Shown here piece by piece: positions 29,752-34,924 of a stretch of DNA of 34,924 bases (position 1 is its first letter; each line of letters begins with the position of its first letter). The stretch comes from an uncultured Spirochaetales bacterium. Its GTDB lineage: Bacteria > Spirochaetota > Spirochaetia > Treponematales > Treponemataceae. The position numbers and the translations under genes were made by a program. A model generated the notes under the pieces. That model worked only from the letters and a program-made list of their open reading frames with translations. It did no database searches and had not been told where the DNA came from. The stretch is from the NCBI GenBank assembly GCA_946061495.1, contig CAMGSV010000002.1, forward strand, positions 1 to 34,924, given 5' to 3'.

Positions 29752-29794
29752 TTGACAAAACATGAGGGGGGGGGGGAGAATGATAGTATATATT
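29752..29794 (+). promoter_or_regulatory. Lipoprotein promoter region containing an 11-G tract
   Basis: A perfect -35 TTGACA (29752-29757) is followed by an 11-base G run (29766-29776) and then TA-rich -10 candidates (TAGTAT 29784-29789, TATATT 29789-29794). The spacer is 26 bases or more with these -10s, longer than the 17 optimum, so tract length should set promoter strength. Confidence 0.6.
29766..29776 (+). repeat. Homopolymer of 11 G
   Basis: An uninterrupted run of 11 G between the -35 and the -10 region of the lipoprotein gene. Runs of this length are prone to slipped-strand change and to sequencing error. Confidence 0.95.
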
Positions 29795-29813
29795 CAGATA
29801 CAAAGGAGTGAAT

Positions 29814-30851
29814 ATGAAACTTATGAAGAAGGTGCTTGTTCTGGCACTGGTGGCTGCCACCATCCTGATGGTAGCCTGTGACAACGGAAATGGCGGCGGT
29901 GGAACCGGCAGTAGTGGAGCTGACGGAAATGGCGGCGGCACGAATACTGGTGGTGATACATTCGTTCCACCAACCCTGCCCAAAAACAAGGGAGACGATC
30001 CCTTTGCGGGACTGAAGACCTTGACTACAGACAGCGACACTGTACGTTACCAGGTGGACACCACAAAGAAGGTGCTCACAGAGGAGCGTTCTGAGGACGA
30101 TGGTAAAAATTGGAGCACGAGTGCGGAGTACAGCTACAGCTATGACGGCACAGCAAACCCACCCACCATCACCGGACGGATTGAGGCTCAGTACGAGGAA
30201 GGAACGAGATTCACCCTGGCTGAGGCGCTGGCCGCTTATGAACCCGAATTTAAGGCAGATTTTACCCAAGGATTTGGGGAGATGTTTGACCAGTTGAGTG
30301 GCCTAGACACAGCTCAGAAGGAGGCTGCACTTGAAGGGCTAAAAGAGCAATTCGGTCTCGACCTCACTGTGGCGGATCTTGCAGCAGACAAGAAGGCTGC
30401 CACCTTTGAAAAGGTTTGGAAATCAGAGACTGTTCAGGATATGCTCAAAGAGGGGCGGGATACACTGAAAAAGATGTTTTCCATGACACCCACCTATGCC
30501 GTGACGTTTACCGACAAAATCGAAACCACCGCCAAGCTTGCAGTGAAAGGACAGTACGACAGCACGCTTCCATGGCATGAGCAGACAGCCGGCACATTCT
30601 ACGGCAGGAGCAGCGACGATACTGCAAACGCTTCCTTTGGCCTAGGATTTGGTTCTGTCGAAACAAAAGATGGGTCTTATAAGGTCACGAAGATCACCGA
30701 AGGCACCATAACCTGTAAAGACAGAGATGGTACCTCTAAGTCCTTCTCCTATACCACCACCGGCACTGACAAGGACATGGTTGTCACTATAACTGTGGAC
30801 TCTGGCAAAACTATTGAATGCACCTGGCAGCCTAGCACCACAATCGGTTAG
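29814..30851 (+). CDS. Lipoprotein of unknown function with Gly-rich linker
   Basis: A 345-residue lipoprotein: signal MKLMKKVLVLALVAATILMVAC with the lipid on Cys22, then an about 30-residue flexible linker rich in Gly and Asn (DNGNGGGG..GNGGGTNTGG). The remainder is polar, with a helical middle (about 125-215) and a beta-rich end. I do not recognise the family. ATG 29814 has AAAGGAG five bases upstream; a GTG at 29808 would overlap that site. Because the promoter carries an 11-G tract, expression may vary between cells. A strong terminator follows; the next gene is a Wzi-like outer-membrane protein. Confidence 0.75.
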   Translation: MKLMKKVLVLALVAATILMVACDNGNGGGGTGSSGADGNGGGTNTGGDTFVPPTLPKNKGDDPFAGLKTLTTDSDTVRYQVDTTKKVLTEERSEDDGKNWSTSAEYSYSYDGTANPPTITGRIEAQYEEGTRFTLAEALAAYEPEFKADFTQGFGEMFDQLSGLDTAQKEAALEGLKEQFGLDLTVADLAADKKAATFEKVWKSETVQDMLKEGRDTLKKMFSMTPTYAVTFTDKIETTAKLAVKGQYDSTLPWHEQTAGTFYGRSSDDTANASFGLGFGSVETKDGSYKVTKITEGTITCKDRDGTSKSFSYTTTGTDKDMVVTITVDSGKTIECTWQPSTTIG

Positions 30852-30990: not shown

Positions 30991-32892
30991 ATGAAAAAGC
31001 TTATCCTTAGTGTCGTCGTATCACTGTTTGCTGCAGCTTCCCTTGCAGCCCAAACCCATACCGCAGTTCCCTTGGACGACCCGATTTATACGGTCATCGA
31101 GCAGGCTCAGCTCAAGGGGCTGTGTCCTGTCTTGAGTGAGGCAAAACCCTATTCCCAGCATAAAATACAATCCATCATCAACACCATCCTGTCCACAGAG
31201 ACGGACCTCCCCTGGGCAGCCCTCACTGCCGCAGAGCGAGCCATCTTAAACCAGACCCTAGATTCCTTCCGAAAGGAGGAGGGATGGAGTTGGCTCAAGG
31301 GGGAAGCATTCCACCAGCACACCACAAAGTCAGGCATCCCCATGACCTTCAACGCAGGAGTATCCTGGCAGTCAGTGTTCTCAGGCTCCGCCCAAGCTGA
31401 AAACGGAGACCTGACAGGGGGAACAGACAACTGGGGCATTGTCTCTCTCAGCGGAGACATGGGCCCCGCCTTCTCCTGGCGTTTCTCCGCAGGCGGCGGA
31501 CTCATGCGTGCCCCCAGAGACTACCTGGGAAAAGCCTACACCTTTTATAAGGGTTTTGAAGACAAGGATATAGATGAGGCCAGAAAAGACCAGAACAAAA
31601 TTTACGATGTGATGACAGAGCCGCTTTCCTTCTTCCCCTACACCTACAGAAAGAACTGGGACGGCTCCATATTCAAGGGAGACAGCCTTGGCTCCAGCGG
31701 CTTCTTCGACTGGCCCCAGGGAATCTCCTTCGGCTACCAGTTGAACGGAGAGGCCGCCGTCTCCTTCTTGGACGATGCCATCTCTGTGCGGGCAGGACGC
31801 CTGATCCGAGAGTGGGGGGCGGGAACCAATGGCAGCAGCCTCGTGCTCAATGCCGCCGCCCGTCCCTTCTTCGGCGTGGAGGCAAACTTCGAGCCATTCA
31901 GCTGGCTCAGGATGGCAACCCTCACTGGTGTCCTGGAGTATTACAATGCAGAGGGCATCAGCGTCAGCTCCGCAACCTTCCAAAACCTCTTCTCCATCGG
32001 CATGGCTGAGGCAAACTACAAGAACTTTGTCCATTTCAGTCTCGGCTCCAGTGTCGTCTATCCAAAGCGGTTCGAGCTGGGCTACGCCTTCCCCCTGCTG
32101 AGCCGTTTCTTCTACCAGAACAATGTAGGAGACTTTGACAATCTGACCATGTTCGCCACCTTAATCGTGCAGTATCCAGGCATCGGAAAGCTCTGGGGCT
32201 CCGCCTATGTTGACGAGATGGATTTGACCAGCCCAGAATTCTTCAATCAGGACCGCAACATGTATGCCCTCCAAGCTGGTGCCGCTGCCACGCTCCCCAT
32301 TCCCGGACTGGCTTTCAGCAATTTCACCTTCCAGTACACCAAGCTAGAGCCCTACGTCTACACCCACCAGCTGGTAAAGACCCCTTGGTACGAAGTATGG
32401 ATGGAGGAGCCCTATATGAACAATGGTGTCTCTTTGGGCTACTACCTACCGCCCAACTCTGACGAGCTGAAAGTGCGGTTTGACTCTTCCTTTATAGGGG
32501 GGGGGGTATTAAATTTCCACCTTCAGTATCAGATGGTACGCCATGGTGCTGAATATGGAAGCCGGGCGGTGGATGGCAGTAGCCTCAATTCTCAGTTGGA
32601 CACCACAGGCCGCAACGACAAGGAAGGCAAGCCAGAGCTGTGGAAGCACTTCCTCCACGATGGTGCCTACCAGTGGCAGCATATCGTCAAGATTGGCGGC
32701 GACTACAATCTGGAAGGTTTCAACATCCCCGTCAAGCTGTTCTGCGACTTGGGCCTGGTCTACTCCTACTTCACCGACATCGACGGCAAGCCCAACTCCG
32801 GACAGCACCAGCCCATCCACAGAATCAACACCTCGGAATACCCCACCCAGACCCGGTTCATCGGAACGGTGGGATTCAAGCTTTACCCATAG
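30991..32892 (+). CDS. Wzi-like outer-membrane protein 1, with in-frame poly-G tract
   Basis: A 633-residue exported beta-rich protein. A signal peptide ends at Ala20 (SLFAAASLAA, then QTH), followed by VPLDDPIYTVIEQAQ. Alternating strands rich in Tyr, Phe and Trp continue to a terminal FIGTVGFKLYP, ending in aromatic-turn form like outer-membrane barrels. I place it in the capsule-assembly Wzi-like family; a role in capsule export is family inference only. It is a paralogue of the next gene (shared VPLDDPIY, FYQN(N/M)VGDFDNL, KHFLHDG-YQWQHI, INTSEYP). Codons 503-505 are in a 10-G tract: 9 G stops at codon 507, 11 G after residue 520. The frame is open as read. Confidence 0.75.
   Translation: MKKLILSVVVSLFAAASLAAQTHTAVPLDDPIYTVIEQAQLKGLCPVLSEAKPYSQHKIQSIINTILSTETDLPWAALTAAERAILNQTLDSFRKEEGWSWLKGEAFHQHTTKSGIPMTFNAGVSWQSVFSGSAQAENGDLTGGTDNWGIVSLSGDMGPAFSWRFSAGGGLMRAPRDYLGKAYTFYKGFEDKDIDEARKDQNKIYDVMTEPLSFFPYTYRKNWDGSIFKGDSLGSSGFFDWPQGISFGYQLNGEAAVSFLDDAISVRAGRLIREWGAGTNGSSLVLNAAARPFFGVEANFEPFSWLRMATLTGVLEYYNAEGISVSSATFQNLFSIGMAEANYKNFVHFSLGSSVVYPKRFELGYAFPLLSRFFYQNNVGDFDNLTMFATLIVQYPGIGKLWGSAYVDEMDLTSPEFFNQDRNMYALQAGAAATLPIPGLAFSNFTFQYTKLEPYVYTHQLVKTPWYEVWMEEPYMNNGVSLGYYLPPNSDELKVRFDSSFIGGGVLNFHLQYQMVRHGAEYGSRAVDGSSLNSQLDTTGRNDKEGKPELWKHFLHDGAYQWQHIVKIGGDYNLEGFNIPVKLFCDLGLVYSYFTDIDGKPNSGQHQPIHRINTSEYPTQTRFIGTVGFKLYP
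32497..32506 (+). repeat. Homopolymer of 10 G inside the first Wzi-like gene
   Basis: Ten G's encode Gly503-Gly505 and the first base of Val506. The matching part of the neighbouring paralogue has no such run (it reads MPLLFLEW there), so the tract is not needed for the fold. Confidence 0.95.
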
Positions 32893-33081: not shown

Positions 33082-34773
33082 ATGAACAGACTACTTTTCA
33101 GATTCCTTTTCCTTGCATCCATGTACCTGCCGCTTTCGGCCCAAACCCACAACTCGGTTCCCTTAGACGACCCGATTTACTTCCTGCTAGAAACAGCCTC
33201 CATCAAGGGCTATTGCACCCTACCAGCAATCCGTCCCTATTCCCAGAAGACCATCCTCAAGGCGCTGGAACAGATTGCAGCCAGTGATGATGCAAGTCCA
33301 CTGGAGCGGGACAGTGCCCAGGCTGCCATCCTGCGCCTGCAGCCTCCATCCCAGGAAGCCTGGTATAAAACGGGCCGGCTCAACTTCAACTACGATACAG
33401 CCAGCGGACTGAAAAACAGGCTGGGACTGGGGGTAAACCTTTCTGCCCACATCGGCTCCAACTTCACCAAGCCTTCTTTCACGTGGGAGGCTATTTTGGA
33501 CGCTTGGGTAAACGGAGACTTCACCAAGTACTTCTCCTACAAGCTGCTGATGGCAGCGGGTCTCTCCCACTACGACTTCGACGCATACCCGCCATACACC
33601 TTCTCTCAGCCGTACGATGGATTCCAATTCCTGCTGAATCCCATGGGAGACTTTACCGCAAAGTCCCAGGATGGCCACATCGGCATGAAAATCCAGCCGG
33701 AACTATCCTTTGGCTTTGGAGATGGCATGCTGAGCATCAACTTCTCCCGAATCAGGAGGGACTGGCAGCTGGCTCAGGGAGTCGGCGGATTGCTGCTGGC
33801 AGGTTCGGCCCGCCCCTTCATGGCTCTGGACATCTACTTTTCTCCCACTAAATGGCTGCAACTGGCCTTTCTCAACGGCGTACTGGAATACAACCGAGCC
33901 GACTCAGACACCATCCGTCCCTTTGACTTCCAAAACAGCTTCACTGCCATGAAGGCTCAATTCGGCCTGGGAAAATATGTGGATGCAGCCATCAACTCTG
34001 CGGTGGTATTTACAAAGCGATTCGAGATGGGTTACTTCAATCCGTTGATGGTTCCCCTTTTCTATCAAAACATGGTGGGTGACTTTGACAATCTGTATTT
34101 TGGTGGGACTCTCGTTGTCAAGCTCCCGCCCTGGGGACGAATCTTTGCAGATATTCTTCTCAGCGAGATTCGTTCCCTGGACATTGTATACACACCGCAG
34201 AATGTCTATGCCTGGCAGGCGGGCGGACAACTGGCAATTCCAGGCAGCCCAACAACCATCACACTGCAATACACCAAGATTGAGCCATTCATGTACACCC
34301 ATTATGGCACGATCACCCCTTGGACTGGTGATACGGAAATGAACACCAGCCTTGTAAACCACGGCGAGGGCATAGGCTCCAATCTACCGCCCAATACAGA
34401 CGAGCTCAAGCTTTCCGCCACCGGGATGCCCCTTTTGTTCCTGGAGTGGAACGCCTCCTACCGCATGGTTCGCCACGGCATCACACCACCGGGGAGCACC
34501 TACGAGCCAACCGAATACAGCGATATGCCCGACAGAAAGCACTTCCTCCACGATGGGGTCTACCAGTGGCAGCACATCTTCACGGTGGGATGCAGCTACA
34601 CTATGCAGCAGCTCCATATTCCCATAAACATTTTCTGTGATTTGGGTTTAGTGTATTCCTACCACACCGACACAACAGATGCCTCATCCTCTGTCATCCA
34701 CAGAATTAACACCTCGGAGTATCCAAACAGGCTTTCTGTCTTGGGAAAAATCGGAGTGAAGGTCTTTCCCTAG
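33082..34773 (+). CDS. Wzi-like outer-membrane protein 2
   Basis: A 563-residue paralogue of the preceding protein. The signal peptide ends at Ala20 (LASMYLPLSA, then QTH), followed by the same VPLDDPIY start. Shared blocks include AYPPYTFSQPYDG-type loops, FYQNMVGDFDNLYF, ITLQYTKIEPFMYTHYG, PPNTDELKLS, MVRHG, KHFLHDGVYQWQHIF and RINTSEYPNRLSVLGKIGVKVFP. It is about 70 residues shorter and lacks the poly-G tract. ATG 33082 has GGAG upstream; an ATG at 33025 has none. It would be made stably while the first copy may switch. Confidence 0.75.
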   Translation: MNRLLFRFLFLASMYLPLSAQTHNSVPLDDPIYFLLETASIKGYCTLPAIRPYSQKTILKALEQIAASDDASPLERDSAQAAILRLQPPSQEAWYKTGRLNFNYDTASGLKNRLGLGVNLSAHIGSNFTKPSFTWEAILDAWVNGDFTKYFSYKLLMAAGLSHYDFDAYPPYTFSQPYDGFQFLLNPMGDFTAKSQDGHIGMKIQPELSFGFGDGMLSINFSRIRRDWQLAQGVGGLLLAGSARPFMALDIYFSPTKWLQLAFLNGVLEYNRADSDTIRPFDFQNSFTAMKAQFGLGKYVDAAINSAVVFTKRFEMGYFNPLMVPLFYQNMVGDFDNLYFGGTLVVKLPPWGRIFADILLSEIRSLDIVYTPQNVYAWQAGGQLAIPGSPTTITLQYTKIEPFMYTHYGTITPWTGDTEMNTSLVNHGEGIGSNLPPNTDELKLSATGMPLLFLEWNASYRMVRHGITPPGSTYEPTEYSDMPDRKHFLHDGVYQWQHIFTVGCSYTMQQLHIPINIFCDLGLVYSYHTDTTDASSSVIHRINTSEYPNRLSVLGKIGVKVFP

Positions 34774-34802: not shown

Positions 34803-34842
34803 GGTGCAAGCTCCAGGGGCCATTTTCCCCGAGGCTTGCACC
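34803..34842 (+). terminator. Hairpin after the second Wzi-like gene
   Basis: GGTGCAAGC (34803-34811) pairs with GCTTGCACC (34834-34842); an inner GGGG/CCCC pair extends it. No T run follows, so transcription may continue into the next reading frame. Confidence 0.5.
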
Positions 34843-34858
34843 GAGCAAAGGAGCCGTC

Positions 34859-34903
34859 ATGAAGTCTAAAATAATCCCCGCAAGAATTTGCCCCCCCCCA
34901 TGA
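34859..34903 (+). CDS. Start of a possible phase-variable gene, currently out of frame
   Basis: GGAG (34850-34853) five bases before ATG 34859 gives a good start. The frame reads MKSKIIPARICPPP and stops at TGA 34901-34903, directly after a run of nine C's (34891-34899). With eight C's the frame stays open to the window end (...CPPHEYNLIIY); with ten it stops four codons later. The rest of the gene, if real, is outside the window, so its product cannot be named. An alternative is that the tract lies in a promoter for a downstream gene. Confidence 0.4.
   Translation: MKSKIIPARICPPP
34891..34899 (+). repeat. Homopolymer of 9 C
   Basis: Nine C's just before the stop of the short reading frame at 34859 and followed by AT-rich DNA (TACAAT at 34905-34910). 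Confidence 0.95.
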
Positions 34904-34924
34904 ATACAATTTAATTATATATAA

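Follow-up and report, generated by a model that had tools for sequence, protein, structure and literature searches.

Introduction

Promoters that carry a homopolymeric tract have been described for surface-protein genes of several bacteria. In Neisseria meningitidis the opc promoter holds a poly-C tract that encompasses the -35 region (PMC7864442, PMC3447861), and in Bordetella the promoters of several surface-protein genes (fim2, fim3, and fimX) contain a C-stretch whose changes in length alter transcription (PMC1891110). Poly-G tracts occur in the promoters of tprE/G/J, tp0126, and tprL of Treponema pallidum, and tp0126 was at first mis-annotated as a longer frame running over its poly-G (PMC7864442).

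This report describes a poly-C tract located at the end of a contig from an uncultured, Treponema-like gut member of the Treponemataceae. The window, that is, the whole stretch of DNA analyzed, is the entire contig C2 of genome G000 (34,924 bp), base 34924 being the last base of the contig; the genome assembly (2.44 Mb in 278 contigs) is fragmented and 85.6% complete. We consider it fairly probable that the tract belongs to a phase-variable promoter, with the poly-C over the "-35" position, which drives the predicted surface-protein gene P0003, and that it is not a coding repeat.

The Poly-C Tract and the Gene Downstream

The nine Cs (34891–34899, forward strand) are preceded by an AAAGGAG ribosome site (34847–34853) and an ATG at 34859, from which a mini-ORF of 14 codons (MKSKIIPARICPPP*) runs to a TGA. 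An earlier note on this DNA had described these elements, together with a frame that is shut after nine Cs and that stays open to base 34924 when one C is removed, and all of this was confirmed when the sequence was read again. The opening with eight Cs covers 8–9 codons up to the end of the window, which carries little weight as an argument on its own, and a judgment from the window alone was dropped because the number of codons is too small. No Rfam element was detected at the C tract at the gathering threshold.

A DNA search in the genus yielded one relative, contig C44 of genome G004, which matches the last 79 bases of the window with 80% identity. In G004 this block carries 12 Cs, is preceded by the ortholog of the window gene at 30991–32892 and is followed by the gene for a 615-aa predicted outer-membrane protein, whose own ortholog in G000 shares 83% identity with it and starts close to the beginning of contig C169. 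The latter contig begins ATATAATACAAC (its opening sequence is also given as ATATAATACAACA) and overlaps the end of the window by six bases; the TATAA at 34920–34924 (forward strand) represents the first five bases of a -10-like TATAAT, with the sixth base on C169. The joined sequence aligns to G004 ungapped across the join, and gene order is as in G004 on both flanks, with a ptsI-type gene and P0002 upstream of the tract and the gene, and with the 614-aa gene followed by riboflavin genes or an FMN riboswitch. The proposed join of C2 and C169, based on the 6-base overlap and one relative, is well supported.

The gene reached in this way (P0003, C169:131–1975) has a GTG start and encodes a protein of 614 aa with a signal-peptide-like segment, predicted to be exported and of the β-barrel type. 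Its family is present in 195 of the 274 family genomes, its profile matches the two beta-rich paralogs of the window with a probability of 95.7%, and in several relatives P0003-type and window-paralog-type genes adjoin. Both paralogs lie on the forward strand and are predicted outer-membrane proteins, one of 633 aa (30991–32892), whose ortholog in G004 is the gene immediately ahead of the poly-C module, and the other of 563 aa (33082–34773), upstream of the tract; the AlphaFold model of a window paralog is poor (pLDDT 42.6). P0003 has no match in Pfam, NCBIfam or the PDB and stays below the Pfam gathering score for the Wzi capsule-assembly family, the model of which is weakly matched by one of 20 P0003 homologs (E 0.0018). 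The designation of P0003 as an outer-membrane protein is therefore a prediction.

Two further features of this family were observed. In G004 the C-terminal 58 residues of the protein are encoded once more (C44:35025–35198; 95% identity), some 1.5 kb downstream from the gene; this remnant could be a source for recombination. Most of the distant family members (L090–L117) are devoid of a recognizable ribosome site and show AT-rich, often TATAAT-like sequence just before the ATG, which suggests leaderless transcripts in these members.

A Module Common to Five Loci and Its Interpretation as a Promoter

The tract is the first part of a module composed of poly-C (9–12), 19 or 20 nt and TATAATACAAYAA-TTACA, which occurs at five loci in four genomes. 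It precedes the gene for the 614/615-aa protein at two of them (in G000 and in G004); at the other three (G000:C66, G003:C66, and G007:C72) an unrelated gene follows, which encodes a small basic protein. The C number over the five loci is 9, 10, 10, 9, and 12, with C12 in G004 and C9, C10, and C10 in the three paralogous modules; at the orthologous site, therefore, the 9 Cs of G000 and the 12 Cs of G004 represent a difference between species. The conserved spacer from the C tract to TATAAT comprises 20 nt in the window (34900–34919, forward strand) and either 19 or 20 nt at each of the five loci. Examination of ten genus genomes with the motif TATAATACAAYAWNTTACANAA gave five matches with 0–1 mismatch, every one of them behind a C9–12 run, while the remaining matches with two mismatches and the reversed-pattern controls were sporadic; across the 274 genomes of the family the complete module was detected in this genus only. 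The plain spacing pattern alone showed no enrichment (7 rows from 4 loci vs. 2 control rows), and the case for the putative promoter depends on the extended motif, not on this pattern. As the two types of gene share no clear similarity in their upstream sequences, the common part consists of the tract and the downstream promoter-like half. The module of the small-protein gene is found without a mini-ORF of the 34859 type. That gene (L120, L118, L052) is preceded by a leader of roughly 150 nt, which is well conserved and has AAGGAGG at its end.

According to the promoter explanation, the C run would sit at the -35 position of the P0003 promoter; with a 17-nt spacer counted from TATAAT, the -35 falls at the end of the run. 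A change in tract length by slipped-strand mispairing would shift the contact with upstream DNA, either by an activator at its site or by RNA polymerase, relative to the -10, and transcription would thereby go up or down, reversibly, in single cells. Translation would start at or near the GTG (C169:131), directly before the signal peptide, and the ATG at 34859, upstream of the proposed transcription start, would not be the start of P0003. Promoter activity, switching in the population and the C number that corresponds to the "on" state are likewise points that we infer from sequence. With a C9 run located 20 nt upstream of TATAAT in a predicted promoter, the locus agrees with the class of homopolymer promoters, which have a C/G run of about eight or more in the promoter. 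It does not agree with the spacer-type class (porA/tp0126), in which tract length sets a spacing near 17: a candidate TTGCCC...TATAAT promoter of this type was discarded because its spacing is 26 nt or more and none of the three paralogous modules has the TTG. No convincing -35 hexamer and no activator site were found at the module, the GTG start of P0003 lacks a clear ribosome site, and the conservation of the ribosome site and ATG in G004 is unaccounted for by the promoter model.

Between the upstream gene and the module lies a strong hairpin (34803–34842, forward strand; -25.5 kcal/mol, z -3.5; no T run), which is probably a transcript end or an insulator. G004 has a hairpin in the same position (z -4.0) with an unrelated sequence. 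Strong hairpins upstream in both species suggest that the gene needs its own promoter, and they are consistent with an independent transcript.

Other Homopolymeric Tracts in the Window and Genome

C/G runs of at least nine are not rare in the window given its composition, with 6 nine-base matches vs. a mean of 1.54 in dinucleotide shuffles, 3 of 100 of which reach 6. The whole genome (2.44 Mb) contains 23 C/G tracts of at least nine, three of them within 5.1 kb in this region; such clustering is unusual for the genome (about 0.026 clusters of this kind expected genome-wide). For six of the 23 tracts (on C2, C22, C140, C161, C228, and C244) the distance to a contig end is 100 bp or less, vs. 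0.5 expected: the assembly breaks at these tracts. Tract heterogeneity as a conclusion from these breaks was rejected, since poor sequencing through G/C runs explains them equally well.

Ahead of the lipoprotein gene at 29814–30851 is a predicted promoter (29752–29781, forward strand) with TTGACA, 18 nt including G11, and GAGAAT, which is conserved in G008 as TTGACA-18-TAGAAT, also with G11; the region 29752–29816 has the appearance of a textbook spacer-type phase-variable promoter like those of tp0126 and porA. The in-frame G10 of the 633-aa protein gene (32497–32506) encodes IGGGV, and relatives have nearly identical residues with shorter or interrupted runs, which indicates that this slippage-prone tract arose here, within coding sequence. 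G11 and G10 runs are also located inside lipoprotein signal peptides on C15 (L020, 1501–1511) and C255 (L044, 2083–2092), respectively. The former is in frame as assembled and the latter apparently so from reading of the sequence; both are likely to represent translational contingency genes.

Alternative Explanations

The earlier note had proposed a third gene switched by frame and caught in the off state, and had advised reading the next kilobase for a long frame in the 8-C or 11-C phase, especially one for an exported protein. Such a frame was found on C169: starting at ATG 34859 with 8 or 11 Cs, it is open for 677/678 codons and enters the 614-aa protein, and the lack of a long downstream frame that the note regarded as fatal to its proposal is thus not observed; with 7, 9, 10 or 12 Cs the frame stops within about 18 codons. 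Openness over 51 codons has a chance of about 5% at this composition, and the match of phase 1/3. A translational contingency gene, in which 8 or 11 Cs bring the protein in frame from ATG 34859, would also be in line with the conservation in G004 of the AAAGGAG, the ATG and ten mini-ORF codons (34847–34889, forward strand), where the single indel is of three bases, and with coding-type G tracts elsewhere in the genome, such as those in lipoprotein signal peptides on C15. We nevertheless hold this quite unlikely. In G004, with its 12 Cs, the corresponding phase meets a TAA at 54 codons, two single-base indels separate G000 and G004 between the tract and the GTG, and mismatches by codon position amount to 12/5/9 in this interval vs. 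50/47/125 in the gene body, that is, the excess at third positions sought between tract and gene is absent; together these features indicate that the leader is not coding-like. A start at 34859 would place about 90 residues ahead of the signal peptide, unlike the family members sampled (28 loci), in nearly all of which no more than a few tens of codons lie between the start and this peptide. Among the distant homologs inspected no C/G run of at least seven occurs upstream, such runs being restricted to the two genus species that share the leader, and a tract within a coding frame conserved in relatives, which defines the translational contingency class, was not encountered. In view of the frame on C169, the earlier idea of a contingency locus ahead of an exported protein is probably right; that of a coding frame shut by nine Cs, a third frame-switched gene in its off state, is probably wrong given the TAA and indels in G004.

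The length-polymorphic tract may instead be a functionally neutral spacer beside an ordinary promoter, given that TATAAT stands constantly 19–20 nt off at any C number, so that the -10 is not displaced, and that no activator site was identified. Homopolymers this long are mutable and would be expected to decay without selection, yet the C run is held at 9–12 in 5/5 module copies despite differing upstream sequences, and neutrality appears unlikely. It is very unlikely that the conserved mini-ORF encodes a leader peptide on read-through transcripts, with tract-dependent translation or termination attenuating the downstream gene: the conserved ribosome site, ATG and first codons with their 3-base indel fit such a role, but they come from two sequences only, the mini-ORF is missing before the small-protein gene and the hairpin is situated upstream of the ribosome site. 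A switch with two layers, the C run setting promoter strength and, on read-through transcripts, an N-terminal extension, is highly improbable; in this species 8 or 11 Cs would then give an N-terminally extended, export-deficient form and 9 or 10 Cs would give none.

Comparison with Known Homopolymer Promoters

If the interpretation of the module as a phase-variable promoter is true, uncultured gut treponemes share with T. pallidum, Neisseria and Bordetella the stochastic switching of surface-protein promoters, and a single poly-C promoter module has been placed ahead of unrelated genes. A practical warning is that where a homopolymer seems to close a frame, it can in fact belong to a promoter, which was the case for tp0126.

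The module resembles the opc promoter in that a poly-C of comparable length would cover the -35 position, before a -10 and a predicted surface protein gene; the organism and protein are unrelated, and dependence of expression on tract length is a prediction for the module. With the Bordetella fim genes it has in common a C-stretch within an element, here a predicted promoter, that is shared among genes, but fim promoters contain a conserved fim box while the poly-C module has no identified activator site. The T. pallidum examples belong to a related lineage and share a homopolymer in the promoters of predicted outer-membrane proteins as well as spurious longer frames over the tract (tp0126); they differ in that their poly-G separates the -35 from the -10 in tp0126 and covers the -10 in tprL, whereas in the G000 module it is Cs that the coding strand carries, 20 nt ahead of the -10. 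The opc, fim and treponemal promoters are best regarded as functional analogies to this module.
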